This document shows, piece by piece, positions 6,676 to 52,177 of a stretch of 64,000 bases of DNA (position 1 is the first letter of the stretch; each line of letters begins with the position of its first letter). This DNA is from Mesoflavibacter sp. (GTDB taxonomy: Bacteria; Pseudomonadota; Alphaproteobacteria; UBA8366; Aestuariispiraceae), in assembly GCA_017792345.1 (NCBI GenBank), contig CP051228.1, positions 1 through 64,000 of the forward strand. The letters are read 5' to 3'. Below the pieces are notes generated by a model. The model was not told the DNA's origin, searched no databases, and worked only from the letters and a program-made list of their open reading frames with translations. The position numbers and the translations under genes were made by a program.

Positions 6676-7428
6676 CTAGCCGTTCGCGATCTTTTCCATC
6701 ACCTCGTCGGAGATGTCGTAGTTCGCGTATACGTTCTGAACGTCGTCATTGTCGTCCAGATTGTCGAGCAGACGTAGCAGCGATTCTGCCGCGTCGCCAT
6801 CGACAGGTGTCAGATTCTGCGGTTTCCACACTAGCTTCGATTCGTCAGGCTCGCCGAAGCGTTCTTCCAACGCCTGGGAAACCTCACTCAAATCCTCCGC
6901 GGCGCAGATGATCTCATGCGCATCATCACCGCTGACGACATCTTCGGCCCCAGCTTCCAGTGCGGCCTCGAAGACAGTTTCGGCATCCGCCGCATCGCCT
7001 TTCAGAACGACCTGTCCGACCCGGTCGAACATGAAGGAAACGGAGCCGGTTTCCCCCATATTGCCGCCGCCCTTGTTGAAGATGGAGCGGATGTCCGCGG
7101 CCGAACGGTTTCTGTTATCGGTCAGGACGTCGACGATAATGGCGACGCCCGCCGGGCCATAGCCTTCATAGCGGATTTCCTCGTAATCCACGCCGTCGCC
7201 GCCGCCGGCGCCTTTCTGGATCGCGCGTTCGATATTGTCCTTGGGCATCGACTGGGCGCGCGCAGTCTGGATCGCCAGGCGCAGGCGCGAATTGGAATCC
7301 GGATCGCCGCCGCCCATTTTGGCGGCAACCATGATTTCCTTCCCCAGTTTCGCGAAGAGCTGCGCGCGCTTTTTGTCCTGCGCGCCCTTGCGGTGCATGA
7401 TGTTCTTGAATTTCGAATGGCCGGCCAT
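6676..7428 (-). CDS. yebC: YebC/PmpR family DNA-binding / translation-associated protein
   Basis: A 250-aa member of the YebC/PmpR family, which occurs just upstream of ruvC in many proteobacteria. Proteins of this family have been described as transcriptional regulators and, more recently, as helpers of ribosomes stalled at proline stretches. Start chosen at [15 protein letters not shown] (7428), the universal family N-terminus; the frame is open 73 codons further upstream but without homology. Motifs [15 protein letters not shown] and the acidic C-terminus are typical. The possible proline-stall role is notable given the poly-proline TolA in the same window. Confidence 0.94.
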
Positions 7429-11196: not shown

Positions 11197-11601
11197 TTAG
11201 GCATCTTCCAGCGATGCAGCAATAGAGGAGATGCGATCCGTCGCTGCGGCAAGCTGCGCTTCCAGCTCCGCGACACGGCGTTCGGCCGCTTCGGCGCGGG
11301 CTTCGGCAGCTTCCTCCCGGCCGTCATCGGCGGGGGCGGCGGCCGGGGCGGCGGCAGGGTTGGCAGCAGGTACCGACGCGCTCTGCCCGTCCAGTTCGGC
11401 GGCCAGATCGGCCATCCGGTCGACCAGCGAAAGACCGGCGATGACCAGCAGGCGCGTGTCCCCCACTTGGCCGATTGCAGTGGCCAGGCCGCTGACTTCT
11501 TCGTCAAGCGCCGCCGCCAATTCACGCAGGCGCGGTTCCTGACCGTCTTCGCAGGCGACGGTATAGGGTCGCCCGTTGATCGAGATGGATACCTGAGCCA
11601 T
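11197..11601 (-). CDS. zapA: Cell division protein ZapA
   Basis: ZapA stabilises FtsZ protofilaments at the division ring. The N-terminal globular domain is typical: VSISINGRPYTVACEDGQE followed by LRELAAALDEEV and a GDTRLLVIAGLSLVDRM helix. The C-terminal part is an Ala/Pro-rich linker followed by a coiled coil, making the protein 134 aa, slightly longer than average. It is followed by the 6S RNA locus and preceded, six bases away, by the DUF4164-like gene. Confidence 0.92.
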   Translation of the reverse strand: MAQVSISINGRPYTVACEDGQEPRLRELAAALDEEVSGLATAIGQVGDTRLLVIAGLSLVDRMADLAAELDGQSASVPAANPAAAPAAAPADDGREEAAEARAEAAERRVAELEAQLAAATDRISSIAASLEDA

Positions 11602-11607
11602 CGTTTC

Positions 11608-11934
11608 CTACTCCGCAGCCGGACCGGTTTCGAGCGCCGAGAGCAGATCATCCACCCGCGCGGTCGCGGCGTCGACCTTGCGCAGGGCCTGCCCGCGCCG
11701 CGTTTCGGCATCGCCGAGCGCGGACTTAAGGGACGCGGTTTCGGCTTTCAGGGTTGCGACTTCTTCTCGCAGCGCTGTCAGTTCAGCCGCGCTTTCGTCT
11801 TCCACGGCAGCAGCCTGCGGGGCTTGCGCCGCCGCTTCAGCCGCGTCCTGGGCCGCCTGAACGCGGGCGTCGACAGCGTCCCGCAGGCGCGTCAGGGCGG
11901 CCTCCAGCTCGGCAGGCAAGGCGGGGTTGGTCAT
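11608..11934 (-). CDS. Coiled-coil protein, DUF4164-like
   Basis: A 108-aa acidic protein that is almost entirely predicted coiled coil, with heptad-like AELTALREEVATLKAETASL. A small protein of this type commonly precedes zapA in alphaproteobacteria, opposite tkt, exactly as here. Its function is not established; the position suggests a cell-division or ZapA-associated role, which is inference from context. Confidence 0.75.
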   Translation of the reverse strand: MTNPALPAELEAALTRLRDAVDARVQAAQDAAEAAAQAPQAAAVEDESAAELTALREEVATLKAETASLKSALGDAETRRGQALRKVDAATARVDDLLSALETGPAAE

Positions 11935-49088: not shown

Positions 49089-49658
49089 GTGACGCGATGG
49101 ATTGTTATTGCGCTATTGGCATTGGGCGGACTGGCCTCCGGGCCAGCCCAAGCTGAGGACGAGGCCGCGTTATGGCAGGCCCTGCGCGACGGCCGGGCGG
49201 CGGTCCTGATCCGCCACGCCCTGGCGCCCGGCACCGGCGACCCGGCCGCCTTCGATGTCGGCGACTGCGCCACGCAGCGCAACCTGTCGGAAGAGGGCCG
49301 GGCCCAGGCCCGCCGGATCGGCGACATGTTCCGTGCCAACGGCATCGACACCGCCACTATCCTGACCAGCCAATGGTGCCGCTGCCGCGACACCGCCACC
49401 GAAATGGCGCTCGGCCCTGTACAGGACGCCCCCTTCCTGAATTCCTTCTTCGCCAATCGCGGCGACGGTCCAGACCAGACCGCCGCCTTGCGCGCCTATC
49501 TGACGGAGGCGGAACCGGAAGCCCCGCTCGTCCTCGTCACCCATCAGGTGAACATCACCGCGCTCACCGACCACTTCCCCCGATCCGGGGAACTGGTCTT
49601 CGTCGAACTGCCTGTCTCTGACGACCCAACCGTCCTGGGCACCGTCGAAACGCGCTGA
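49089..49658 (+). CDS. Exported histidine phosphatase-superfamily protein
   Basis: I start at GTG 49089 with SD GGGAGGA eight bases upstream, giving a signal peptide cut near AQA-ED and about 189 aa. The phospho-accepting His is in VLIRHALAPG, and a second conserved His in VLVTHQVN. A disulfide-like pair of Cys lies in TSQWCRCRDTATEM. This branch includes phosphohistidine or phosphoserine phosphatases in the periplasm. The gene lies next to the tRNA-Val element. Confidence 0.8.
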   Translation: MTRWIVIALLALGGLASGPAQAEDEAALWQALRDGRAAVLIRHALAPGTGDPAAFDVGDCATQRNLSEEGRAQARRIGDMFRANGIDTATILTSQWCRCRDTATEMALGPVQDAPFLNSFFANRGDGPDQTAALRAYLTEAEPEAPLVLVTHQVNITALTDHFPRSGELVFVELPVSDDPTVLGTVETR

Positions 49659-49682
49659 CCGCCCGCTCCGCGCAAAACGAAA

Positions 49683-49702
49683 CCCCCAGGTTGCCCTGGG
49701 GG
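49683..49702 (-). terminator. Terminator-like hairpin beside the left repeat
   Basis: CCCCCAGG / CCTGGGGG with loop TTGC; on the minus strand it is followed by TTTCGTTTTG. It probably was the original terminator downstream of tRNA-Val before the element separated it from the complete gene. It also lies 24 bases after the phosphatase stop and may serve that gene. Confidence 0.7.
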
Positions 49703-49753
49703 TTTCGATGGTGGGCGCGGCAAGGATTGAACTTGCGACCCCTGCGATGTCAA
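49703..49753 (-). repeat. Left attachment repeat with tRNA-Val 3' remnant
   Basis: 51 bases identical to 51935-51985, matching the 3' half of tRNA-Val including CCA (49709-49753). The tRNA sequence breaks off at the anticodon. Integration of a tyrosine-recombinase element in a tRNA 3' half would leave exactly this pattern. Confidence 0.9.
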
Positions 49754-49804
49754 GAATAAGCGACCTTTAAATTTCTTTATTTATCAATGGCTTTCTCCGG
49801 CAAC

Positions 49805-49846
49805 TGGTGCAGTCTATGGCATCACAAGCGCCACGATACTGCACCA
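49805..49846. other. Two ACTGCACCA sites near the left end
   Basis: ACTGCACCA occurs on the minus strand at 49805-49813 and on the plus strand at 49838-49846. Together with three copies near the right end they look like recombinase arm-binding sites. Confidence 0.5.
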
Positions 49847-49944
49847 ATACTGCTACCAAACTTTCAATCAATCAGACTCCATCACGAGCCCAAAAAGTAC
49901 ATATTGAAAACGGCACCCATTCACCCCATATATAGTATGTTGAG

Positions 49945-50075
49945 CTTTGGCGCTTGGCCTTTGGTTGACTGGGATGACCGGAGAACTTGAGGTTAAGTGC
50001 AGCGCCGCCATCAGGGCCAACGTCCTTGTCGCGGAGCATCCGAAAGGGCCATTCGGCACCTCGGCAGAGTTTAGC
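49945..50075. repeat. 131-bp repeat, copy 1
   Basis: Identical to 50318-50448, offset 373 bases. GC-rich compared with the AT-rich DNA just to its left. It holds a CCGAA-agggcca-TTCGG hairpin near its end. No convincing gene lies in it on either strand. Confidence 0.95.
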
Positions 50076-50235
50076 ACCCACCCGTCCGGTTCGACACTAG
50101 CCGTTGCTTTCTCTGTTAAGGGGACCTGTTGGGGCGGCTGGTCGACATTTCAAAAGACGCGCCGGGTGGAGGTCGATGGATCGCTCTTGGCTTGCTCCTG
50201 CGCCCAAAAAGGGTAACCTTTGCGAAGGAGCTACC

Positions 50236-50316
50236 GATGGATGATGCATGCAAAAACGTGCCAATTCGCTGGCACGGACCGAGTACCGGAATTGGTTCCA
50301 ATTCTGCCTCGGAGTG
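50236..50316 (+). CDS. Small ORF (26 codons) in the element
   Basis: ATG 50236 is preceded by GAAGGAG about five bases upstream. The frame (MDDACKNVPIRWHG ...) stops at 50314-50316, immediately before repeat copy 2. The inner hairpins at 50257-50312 fall inside it. It may be a leader peptide, a truncated gene start, or chance; no homologue is recognised. Confidence 0.3.
50257..50312 (+). ncRNA. Candidate structured RNA upstream of the reverse transcriptase
   Basis: Two adjacent strong hairpins. The first is CGTGCCA (50257-50263) with TGGCACG (50270-50276). The second has an outer stem CCGAG/CTCGG (50279-50283 with 50308-50312) and an inner stem GAATTG/CAATTC (50289-50294 with 50299-50304). 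They end just before repeat copy 2 and about 180 bases before the reverse transcriptase start. Retrons and some defence RTs are preceded by a structured template RNA, so this is a candidate for one; the true RNA ends are unknown. Confidence 0.4.
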
Positions 50317-50317
50317 A

Positions 50318-50448
50318 CTTTGGCGCTTGGCCTTTGGTTGACTGGGATGACCGGAGAACTTGAGGTTAAGTGCAGCGCCGCCATCAGGGCCAACGTCCTT
50401 GTCGCGGAGCATCCGAAAGGGCCATTCGGCACCTCGGCAGAGTTTAGC
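50318..50448. repeat. 131-bp repeat, copy 2
   Basis: Exact copy of 49945-50075. It ends 43 bases before the reverse transcriptase ATG. After copy 1 the text CCCGTCCG appears, and after copy 2 its complement CGGACGGG, so the two flanks could pair across the repeats. Confidence 0.95.
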
Positions 50449-50491
50449 GCACGGTCGGACGGGCAAGCTACTGACAGGGCCCCAGTACCGA

Positions 50492-51760
50492 ATGAAAAGC
50501 AAAATCTTTAGAGAAATTACCAAACAGTCCGCGCTGAAAGATGCGTGGGCTAAGGTTTATGAAAATGGGATCTCTTCCCGCTCGTACGAAACTCAAAAAG
50601 AAATCAAGAGCTTTCAGCCGGAATCGGATAGACATATCCGCTCTATACAACGACGTCTTCGAAACGATTCGTACCAATTCCAGCCATCTATCGGCAAGAA
50701 AATCCCAAAAAAGACTAAGGGCGATTTTCGGCCTTTGGTTATTGCTCCAATTGAAACCCGAATTATTCAAAGGGCGGTCCTCGATTACATCTTGGATGAG
50801 CCGAAACTGAAGGATTACATAGAAACTCCTCACAGTTTTGGCGGAGTTCGGAAATCAAATCACGATGACCCGTCACCCGTAGCCGCAGCAATACGCACCG
50901 CGCTAGAAGCGAAGGCAAACAATCTGGCGTATGTGCGTTGCGCCGACATCTCCTCTTTCTTTACGAGAATTAGAAAAAGCAGTGTTAGAAGCATCATATC
51001 GAGCACGGTTCCGGACTCTGACTTTCTTAAGCTCTTTGACGAATGCATTTCAGTAGAACTCTCGAACCTGGAGAAACTTGGATCCGATGCAAATCGATTT
51101 CCGCGTGGAGATTTAGGAGTGGCACAAGGAAGTTCCTTGTCTCCTATGCTGGGCAACATTCTGCTTCACCGATTTGACGAAGAGATGAACCAATCAGGCT
51201 GTCGATGCATCAGATACATTGACGATATCCTTATATTGGGTCCGAGTGAGAAAGCGGTATCGGCACGTTTCAAACATGCAACCTCACTCCTCAAATCCAT
51301 GGGTATGGAGTTTTCCAAGAGCAAATCGAGCTTCGGAGTACAAAATTTCGATTCTGGCTTTAGCTTTTTGGGAATTGAATTGATTAGCGGCCTGATCCGC
51401 CCTGACGGTCAGTCCATAGGAAATTTCAAACAAAAAATGAAATCTATAGTTGACGACGCTATCTTGAACATGACTTCTCCGGGAAAGACATTTGACCGAC
51501 GGAAATCCCTAATTCCGACTTTGGAAAGAATTTCTGGAACCGTAAATGGCTGGGGAAAGCATTACCGCTTTTGCAATGATGAAAAGACGTTTGAAAACAT
51601 TGATCACTTTGTCGACACAGAGATCAGAAGGCTTCTAGGCGCCTATACGCGCGCCAGATCTAAGGGATCTATCTCTGCCAGACACCTCCTCGGCGTAGTC
51701 TCTCTGGGCGAAATGGAAAGACTGCCACTCAAGTGGCCCACAAAATCACCAGGAACCTAG
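50492..51760 (+). CDS. Reverse transcriptase (candidate defence-type RT)
   Basis: 422 aa. RT motifs in order: RPLVIAPIETRIIQRAVLDYI (81-101, fingers, shown here in parts), ADISSFF (151-157, catalytic Asp152), GVAQGSSLSPMLGN (209-222), YIDD (242-245) and FLGIEL (292-297). A thumb-like part follows, with VNGWGKHYRF (351-360) recalling the group II intron RT/maturase family. No HNH, maturase DNA-binding or integrase domain is present and no group II intron RNA was seen. It is AT-rich with unusual codons for this genome. Both a defence RT of the DRT/unknown-group type and a retron-like RT are possible; the VTG signature of retrons was not found. Confidence 0.85.
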   Translation: MKSKIFREITKQSALKDAWAKVYENGISSRSYETQKEIKSFQPESDRHIRSIQRRLRNDSYQFQPSIGKKIPKKTKGDFRPLVIAPIETRIIQRAVLDYILDEPKLKDYIETPHSFGGVRKSNHDDPSPVAAAIRTALEAKANNLAYVRCADISSFFTRIRKSSVRSIISSTVPDSDFLKLFDECISVELSNLEKLGSDANRFPRGDLGVAQGSSLSPMLGNILLHRFDEEMNQSGCRCIRYIDDILILGPSEKAVSARFKHATSLLKSMGMEFSKSKSSFGVQNFDSGFSFLGIELISGLIRPDGQSIGNFKQKMKSIVDDAILNMTSPGKTFDRRKSLIPTLERISGTVNGWGKHYRFCNDEKTFENIDHFVDTEIRRLLGAYTRARSKGSISARHLLGVVSLGEMERLPLKWPTKSPGT

Positions 51761-51792
51761 ATACTCGTAACTCGAACCATCTCCCAATCAAT

Positions 51793-51880
51793 ACTGCACC
51801 AGCAGGAGGGGAGTTTAAGTCTTTCGTTTCAAAACGTTAATAGGCATGAAAAATTTTTAGCTGCACCAATAACTGCACCA
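51793..51880. other. Three [AG]CTGCACCA sites near the right end
   Basis: Copies at 51793-51801, 51860-51868 (GCTGCACCA) and 51872-51880, all on the plus strand and in the AT-rich spacer between the RT gene and tRNA-Val. This clustering at both ends of the element is as expected for integrase arm sites. Confidence 0.5.
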
Positions 51881-51910
51881 CGCCCAAAATCGGGGGATAG
51901 CTAGGAAAGC

Positions 51911-51933
51911 AAAAACCCCCGGTTTCCCGGGGG
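51911..51933 (-). terminator. Terminator of tRNA-Val supplied by the element
   Basis: CCCCCGG / CCGGGGG stem with a TTTC loop; on the minus strand it is followed by TTTTT, just downstream of the tRNA 3' end. Its sequence differs from the hairpin at 49683, so it came with the element and replaces the original. Confidence 0.8.
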
Positions 51934-51940
51934 TTTTCGA

Positions 51941-52015
51941 TGGTGGGCGCGGCAAGGATTGAACTTGCGACCCCTGCGATGTCAACACAGTGCTCTCCCA
52001 CTGAGCTACGCGCCC
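51941..52015 (-). tRNA. tRNA-Val(GAC)
   Basis: 75 bases including encoded CCA. Acceptor stem GGGCGCG / CGCGCCC, D-arm TAGCTCAG..., anticodon stem CTGTG / CGCAG with loop TTGACAT (anticodon GAC), T-loop GTTCAATCC. The 3' half from the anticodon loop on was restored by the inserted element, whose att repeat ends at 51985. Confidence 0.95.
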
Positions 52016-52177
52016 GCGTCTCTGTGGACGGCGCGGTGTTTAGCACCCGTTTTCGGGTCCATCAAGCATTTGATCGCAGGAAAATTCATCGAACCGACAT
52101 CCGGCGGCGGGAAAGCTGGCACAGGCCTTGCTTTGCCTGACGGTCGAGAGAGAAGTCTATCGGACGGGAGAGGTTCG

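Follow-up and report, generated by a model that had tools for sequence, protein, structure and literature searches.

A twin-repeat leader RNA upstream of a G2L4-type reverse transcriptase in an integrase-less tRNA-Val island: a possible template for tandem cDNA

The genome of Mesoflavibacter sp. (GenBank assembly GCA_017792345.1) exhibits, within the 64,000-nt stretch of contig CP051228.1 analysed here (positions 1 to 64,000 of the forward strand, hereafter the window), an insert at a tRNA-Val(GAC) gene measuring 2,232 bp from one direct-repeat copy to the next, the sole sizeable gene of which encodes a reverse transcriptase (RT) of the G2L4 family. Directly 5' of this gene we identified a perfect 131-nt direct repeat (R1 and R2) enclosing a 242-nt spacer (X). 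The R-X-R layout recurs in most of the relatives examined and suggests that the enzyme turns its own leader RNA into repeated DNA copies. We tentatively propose, with somewhat less than even confidence, that the integrase-less tRNA-Val island carries one module, composed of a promoter, an R-X-R leader RNA and a G2L4 RT, and that strand transfer from R to R would give tandem complementary DNA (cDNA). The parts of the module are the following.

49931..49936, plus strand: -10-like box TATAGT, ending 8 nt before R1, read from the sequence; candidate -35 box TTGAAA at 49904-49909, with a long spacer
49945..50075, plus strand: R1, 131-nt repeat, predicted structured RNA (repeat search, fold)
50076..50317, plus strand: X, 242-nt spacer with two AAAAA motifs
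50250..50262, plus strand: GCAAAAACGTGCC motif followed by the hairpin GTGCCA..TGGCAC, starting 242 nt before the RT start
50318..50448, plus strand: R2, identical to R1 (repeat search)
50449..50491, plus strand: leader from R2 to the RT, with a conserved GGGU..ACCC hairpin
50492..51760, plus strand: G2L4-type RT, 422 aa, YIDD (profile and PDB matches)

The twin repeat and its reverse transcriptase

With a criterion of a repeat of at least 60 nt at a spacing of 250-560, R-X-R is found before the RT in 58 of 96 loci (median R 130 nt, median spacing 369, mean identity 99.4%), the two copies being perfect in 37 of the 58. Hwanghaeella grinnelliae exhibits the same layout with a perfect R of 133 nt at a spacing of 372, its R differing by about 12% from that of the window. 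The same scoring gave one match in 952 control stretches of neighbouring DNA (547,819 bases), a 102-nt direct repeat with a spacing of 332 in the first 960 nt of locus L071. Exact 60-nt runs, present in 57 of the 58 R-X-R loci, did not occur in 611,588 control bases. The layout is seen in five phyla (Pseudomonadota, Acidobacteriota, Nitrospirota, Thermodesulfobacteriota and Bdellovibrionota), and also at a distant YADD RT (L016) whose long branch makes its tree position unsure. It is not only a draft artefact, since it is present in the complete genome of Stella (L070), a complete Pseudomonas aeruginosa plasmid (L017) and the single-contig genomes of L128 and L016. In the G2L4 part of a tree of 55 chosen rows (support of the G2L4 fork 90/64), 41 of 46 rows show R-X-R, three show one R, and two are without it, one having 27 nt upstream and the other a 59-nt repeat.

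Fourteen of the 96 loci have less than 620 nt of upstream sequence, L062 among them still showing R-X-R. Twenty-five loci have enough upstream sequence and no repeat of at least 60 nt: five outgroup RTs, twelve loci with one R, two with shorter repeats (59 nt in L078, 42 nt in L063) and six others, namely L041 with an N gap, L045 without an RT start, L069 with a truncated R, and the unexplained L042, L053 and L057. The twelve single-R loci are counted among 20 in which the RT has YIDD, the upstream stretch reaches 620 nt or more and a repeat of at least 60 nt is lacking. Three Rs are present in L049 and L096. Downstream of the RT, the longest nearby open reading frame (ORF) was sought at 20 chosen loci, of which 19 gave one; among the 18 scanned (L044 was left out), ten had a Pfam match and no family was shared. 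For this reason, and because the island of the window holds nothing else sizeable, the RT and its R-X-R are probably a self-sufficient module.

R1 is closer to its own R2 than to any foreign R2 in 53 of 54 loci, with mean identities of 99.4% and 78.0%, respectively; the exception is L083 when compared with its sister L081. Loci with three Rs or a partial R were left out here and in the promoter score given below (53 loci). Since the Rs of one locus are alike while foreign Rs differ, what is kept is their mutual identity and not any one sequence. The mismatches between R1 and R2 are few and not specific to adenine, which is involved in 19 of 42.

The best PDB matches of the RT are 9d5x and 9d4s; 9d5x, a crystallised G2L4 RT, matches at E = 1.4e-53, and the next RT outside G2L4 at 4.1e-18. 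The enzyme matches RVT_1 at 1.8e-22 and exhibits YIDD at Y242-D245, and YIDD instead of YADD is given as a mark of G2L4 in the accessible part of PMC4244168. It scores 155 bits with the group II RT model, under the cut-off of 300, and 49.4 bits with the retron RT family (cut-off 235); the 14 Rfam matches obtained for 49600-52100 up to E = 10 include no group II intron. In the 9d5x alignment the stretch of the RT3a plug is slightly shorter in the window RT, and the RR pair (Arg190/Arg191) is not seen. The first-pass annotation of this DNA had recommended a classification of the RT: PADLOC returned a generic RT model and UG17 as the best named subgroup, and the PDB comparison gave G2L4. Judged by its sequence, the window RT belongs to the G2L4 family.

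Matches to the RT at E <= 0.001 were found in 5 of 59 genomes, and at E <= 1e-20 in 7 of 385 genomes of the class, the own genome being included in both counts; of 123 loci found in genome contigs, 80 were kept. Hwanghaeella grinnelliae is the nearest relative (62% RT identity). The RT of L017, on the complete P. aeruginosa plasmid, is close to the crystallised P. aeruginosa G2L4 RT (E = 2.3e-119), and this locus carries R-X-R. None of 20 matching stretches in viral contigs encodes a relative, all 16 matching phage records are below 60% identity, and so are all among the plasmid matches listed (at least 5,000 records), H1, H3 and H4 having been examined out of 30 rows. In Stella sp. ATCC 35155 (L012 / L070) the G2L4 RT is fused to an RNase H-like domain, as judged by eye. 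The gene of L126, considered as a possibly broken one, is not, its stops falling behind the RT end.

Promoter, fold and spacer of the leader RNA

In 35 of 53 loci, a simple promoter score places the end of the best -10 box 5-15 nt before R1, and in 49 of the 53 the best score exceeds the control mean. The mean -10 score rises to 7.9 before R1, with a background of 5.8 and values of at most 6.6 around R2. As the score peaks just before R1, R1 seems to begin near the 5' end of the RNA.

An alignment of R plus leader from 21 loci yields 26 base pairs, in which 94.2% of the cells are paired, compared with 33-49% when the alignment is slid. Two-sided changes are seen in 14 of the 26 pairs, a number reached in none of 500 shuffles, the structure being derived from the same alignment as tested and the shuffles ignoring relatedness. 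The R of the window has a folding z-score of -3.49. The modelled structure shows R folding as a conserved, covarying RNA. A covariance model of R matched R1 and R2 in the window and in the nearest relative (L018). It also gave a single clear R in L044 (36 bits) and in several near relatives, and a score of 18 bits in L055. In a class-wide search with this model, 36 of 289 genomes gave E <= 0.01; except for the own genome all of these scored at most 32 bits and were taken as noise uninspected. Up to E = 10, Rfam gave no match within the window's R-X-R; in eight relatives, searched at the gathering score, its only matches were two tRNAs.

Further helices in X also show two-sided changes. The two AAAAA motifs of X (50206-50256) lie 46 nt apart in the window and are invariant in 18 aligned loci; this pair is possibly a short A-B-A' arrangement inside the large one. 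An ORF spanning X and R2 (50248-50511, MQKRA...) was considered as a small protein, and we doubt it. Its start ATG is AAG in 4 of 18 loci (L026, L029, L035 and L038), GCAAAAACGTGCC is invariant in 18 of 18 even at codon third positions, the spacing modulo 3 is free (32/16/10), and the neighbouring frame in X is shifted between the window and the Hwanghaeella genome G008. At the X-R2 position of L017, a 64-aa hypothetical protein is annotated.

The insertion at tRNA-Val and the mobility of the island

The boundaries of the island, and the features between these and the module, are as follows.

49674..49702, minus strand: probable native tRNA terminator, outside the element (congener terminators compared)
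49703..49753, unstranded: attL, the 51-nt direct repeat at the left boundary, a displaced 3' end of tRNA-Val (repeat search)
49754..49944, unstranded: left arm with ACTGCACC motifs at 49806 (minus) and 49838 (plus)
51761..51934, unstranded: right arm with ACTGCACC motifs at 51793 and 51872, and a probably element-borne terminator at 51906-51934
51935..51985, unstranded: attR, the 51-nt direct repeat at the right boundary (repeat search)
51941..52015, minus strand: intact tRNA-Val(gac) (tRNA search)

The two 51-nt copies are perfect, lie inside a longer 91% match and include the 3' part of the tRNA. The GC fraction is 0.489 in the element and 0.655 and 0.649 in its flanks. Two congeners, G003 and G001, hold the attachment sequence once at tRNA-Val and lack the element; G003 has 2.8 kb of other DNA slightly further left of the site, and the gene immediately left of the site in G001 is unmatched. 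The G003 terminator matches the left copy at 26 of 29 positions and the right copy at 21 of 29; for G001 the figures are 24 and 22 of 29, a small margin. As both resemble the left copy more, the left terminator is probably the native one and the right one element-borne. Elsewhere in the own genome the attachment sequence occurs only at the other end of the contig, beside three weaker matches (74-78%) that are presumably other tRNAs. The insertion is real, given the intact tRNA, the exact repeats, the lower GC, the congeners without insert and their left-like terminators. The first-pass annotation had described direct repeats, a restored tRNA 3' half, a swapped terminator, foreign base composition and a clean integration without an integrase. 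Our analysis supports these, the terminator swap as probable, and so does the empty-site comparison that it suggested. Its description of the cargo as a lone RT (50492-51760) is right in that this is the only sizeable gene and no integrase lies within the element, but it overlooked the conserved R-X-R leader RNA, which belongs to the cargo too.

Five tyrosine-recombinase matches are present in the genome, none of them close to tRNA-Val, and no helper is seen at this site in the own genome. Direct repeats of at least 16 nt surround the module in 3 of 77 loci (51 nt in the window, 19 in L068 and 18 in L023), and in none of the reversed controls; at 13 nt or more, the count is eight loci and one in the reversed control. 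L023, from Rhizobium sp. CCGE 510, is a second minimal unit, of 2.17 kb, with its 18-nt repeat at the 3' end of a tRNA-His. L127 is a weaker candidate, of 2.28 kb with a 14-nt repeat, in which no intact tRNA is seen. In L062, a tRNA-Val follows the RT at a distance of about 90 nt. The fetched stretch contains a tRNA in only 9 of 95 loci, so that tRNA sites are one home among many.

Most likely, a tyrosine integrase provided in trans inserted the island, mobilisation in trans being the simplest account of integrase-less units. The earlier suggestion of a minimal island mobilised in this way is compatible with the data. It is somewhat unlikely, in our judgment, that the island is instead a deletion remnant of a larger integrase-bearing one. 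The first-pass annotation had named the same RT in such a larger island as the observation that would show a remnant; it is not seen in the genus, the RT being absent from congeners G001-G005, while the distant relatives L036 (by Pfam) and L068 (by eye) adjoin integrases. These neighbours, and the fact that the island was seen in one genome only, speak for a remnant; both ends, the arm-like motifs and the att repeats are intact, however, and L023 and the candidate L127 would each require a similar deletion. We regard it as very improbable that the unit is a retroelement moving by itself and entering tRNA 3' ends through its own RT. In the window and in L023, an RT-only cargo does lie next to a tRNA 3' end, and the RT faces the tRNA, and the tRNA-Val of L062 would fit as well, but the scarcity of tRNAs among the loci argues against it, and tRNA-end repeats of 51 and 18 nt are typical of tyrosine integrases.

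Several neighbourhoods deserve mention in their own right. Other genes lie beside the same tRNA-Val in G002, G004 and G005 (G002 was not read gene by gene), and because these regions differ, the site may be an integration hotspot. ThiF-like and ATPase-like ORFs (by eye) are among the genes adjoining this tRNA in L119 and L120, from two congeners. In Pseudomonas, a small recombinase gene lies just behind the RT on the opposite strand, at L017:5411-5992 (annotated as a recombinase family protein) and L068:5367-5996 (by eye). The Hwanghaeella RT (L010, G008) is flanked on one side by a paa-type reductase gene and on the other by a second, partial copy of the end of that gene (about 6900-7050 and 11215-11850, by eye), which may mark another insertion. 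The own genome contains a second, distant RT (L155; G000:C1:1093344-1098180) between two tyrosine recombinases, with an RVT_1 match of 8.7e-10 and YADN at the active-site motif.

A possible template for tandem cDNA, and known systems

In the reading that we propose, the transcript would start at or near R1 and run 5'-R1-X-R2-leader-RT. The RT would bind the R-X-R RNA and copy it, starting in or 3' of R2. A cDNA that reaches the 5' end of the RNA would carry the complement of R1, could re-anneal to R2 and continue, so that each strand transfer would add one (R-X) unit of about 373 nt in tandem. Such products could recombine with the locus, maintaining R1 = R2 and giving rise to one-R and three-R forms. 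The cDNA may serve in defence, in line with the minimal defence island suggested by the first-pass annotation, or as a helper in end-joining repair; the published function of the family is double-strand-break repair (PMC12337344, accessible part). In favour of the proposed reading are the recurrence of R-X-R with this RT family, also at L017, the concerted evolution of R1 and R2, the covarying fold of R, the -10-like box that tends to stand just before R1, the loci with one or three Rs, the lack of a shared Pfam family downstream and the minimal units beside tRNAs. A wider proposal, which we hold as possible if doubtful, is that G2L4 RTs in general are RNA-templated repeat synthesizers rather than lone repair enzymes, and that their tandem cDNA of about 370-nt units also rewrites the locus and thereby keeps the Rs identical.

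The contig itself offers a second copy of the locus. It is not circularised, its end repeating its start, and the element locus is therefore present twice: the fetched end stretches match window positions 19102-59132 at 99.97-100% (40 kb checked), from which we infer, by extrapolation, a full overlap of about 59 kb, covering window positions 1-59132. The end copy lacks exactly one R and one X, and its RT frame is open; it may be a true culture variant or an end-of-contig error.

Several observations weigh against the template reading. A strict promoter scan finds no promoter in the window. In L042, L053 and L057, R-X-R is absent and no R can be recognised. The one-R forms are possibly due to assembly collapse in drafts, L033 and L041 having N gaps right here. 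The covariance model finds little beyond the nearest clade, most distant loci being at noise though R-X-R is kept; since those loci keep the layout without a match, the identity of the two copies outlives the sequence. The X hairpin alone is not significant by energy (z = -0.89) and is readable as an antisense terminator; this is possible, but one of its pairs is U-G in 9 of 18 loci, a change that the sense hairpin tolerates and the antisense one does not. Plain gene conversion of DNA could also homogenise R1 and R2. Finally, the accessible part of PMC12337344 presents G2L4 as a free-standing enzyme that repairs double-strand breaks through end joining. The strong annealing of strands and the snap-back synthesis that it describes for G2L4 RT speak, by contrast, for the template reading.

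Two other explanations dispense with a template. R-X-R might act in the RT mRNA as a leader that regulates it: its two identical domains would bind the RT or a ligand and control expression, while the RT repairs breaks and gene conversion homogenises the repeats. R2 and the end of the leader, with its conserved hairpin, do lie beside the RT start codon, and the repair role is published (PMC12337344, accessible part). A regulator, however, could do without 130 identical nucleotides, the sequence of R drifts from locus to locus although the copies stay alike, and a loss-prone architecture is kept across five phyla, so that we consider this explanation rather unlikely. We give still less credit to a recombination switch, in which crossing-over between the Rs would remove R-X, shorten the leader and produce expression variants in the population. 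It would agree with the contig end that lacks exactly one R-X unit, with the twelve one-R loci, one of which (G184, L013) is in a genome of only two contigs, and with the three Rs of two loci. The one-R forms may, however, be assembly artefacts, a switch without a known way back from loss would decay, and for identity to persist over deep divergence, selection would have to maintain two copies.

Crystal structures and a repair role have been published for G2L4 RTs, yet a twin-repeat RNA is deeply conserved at their loci. The RT family is known, while the twin-repeat RNA is not described in the literature searched, the founding paper aside: among titles and abstract beginnings no R-X-R RNA at G2L4 RTs is described, the founding Cell 2022 paper lying outside the search. 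The passages on G2L4 covered make no mention of an upstream R-X-R RNA, and the accessible part of PMC13015716 does not mention repeat, operon, ncRNA, noncoding, upstream or defense. If the R-X-R RNA is the natural template, the cellular job of the G2L4 RT needs rethinking. The window RT resembles the known G2L4 RTs in sequence, in its YIDD and in being free-standing with no group II intron match; the RR pair of the RT3a plug is not seen in its aligned sequence.

Diversity-generating retroelements have two near-identical repeats of about 130 nt near an RT, with adenine-specific differences. We reject such an assignment here, the R1/R2 mismatches having no such specificity and the RT exhibiting QGSSLSP together with YIDD, and likewise that of a retron, given the retron score far under its cut-off. 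Islands of the CIME type are flanked by att sites and lack an integrase. The window element exhibits att repeats, no integrase and an empty site in relatives, and differs in carrying nothing but one RT module of 2.2 kb.

DRT10 (UG17) likewise combines an RT with an upstream structured RNA and a repeated segment flanking the template. According to the accessible part of PMC12632851, its A/A' repeats are 2-4 nt long, strand transfer uses this 2-4 nt homology and the RNA measures 137 nt; the repeat of the window is about 130 nt and its R-X-R about 500 nt. DRT10 has its short A-B-A' in a template loop; the R-X-R of the window is a large A-B-A', with two AAAAA motifs in X. No SLATT gene as in DRT10 is found in the element, which has 43 nt between R2 and the RT and no other sizeable gene, nor among the ten Pfam-matched downstream ORFs of relatives, eight more being unmatched and upstream genes not scanned. 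A concatemeric cDNA made from the upstream RNA would be the same kind of product as that of DRT2 (Neo), whose unit is 120 nt (PMC12039810, accessible part) as against about 370 here. The endless ORF of DRT2 is not present in the window, where the longest extends over 1.13 rounds; 9 of 54 units are endless, including that of the nearest relative L018. Concatemer ORFs of at least 1.2 rounds number 28 in the 54 units, compared with 19.1 expected from shuffles, and a coding concatemer is possible for some relatives.

In retroviral strong-stop strand transfer, the R sequence lies near the RNA 5' end and recurs close to the opposite end of the template. The window module differs in that the RT gene lies 3' of R2 and neither a long terminal repeat nor an integrase is present. 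If our reading is true, the relationship between repeat-making RTs (DRT2, DRT10, telomerase) and group II-like RTs becomes testable with a single module of about 2.2 kb, which would be a bacterial counterpart of the retroviral R and, on a giant scale, of the telomerase-like A-B-A' template.

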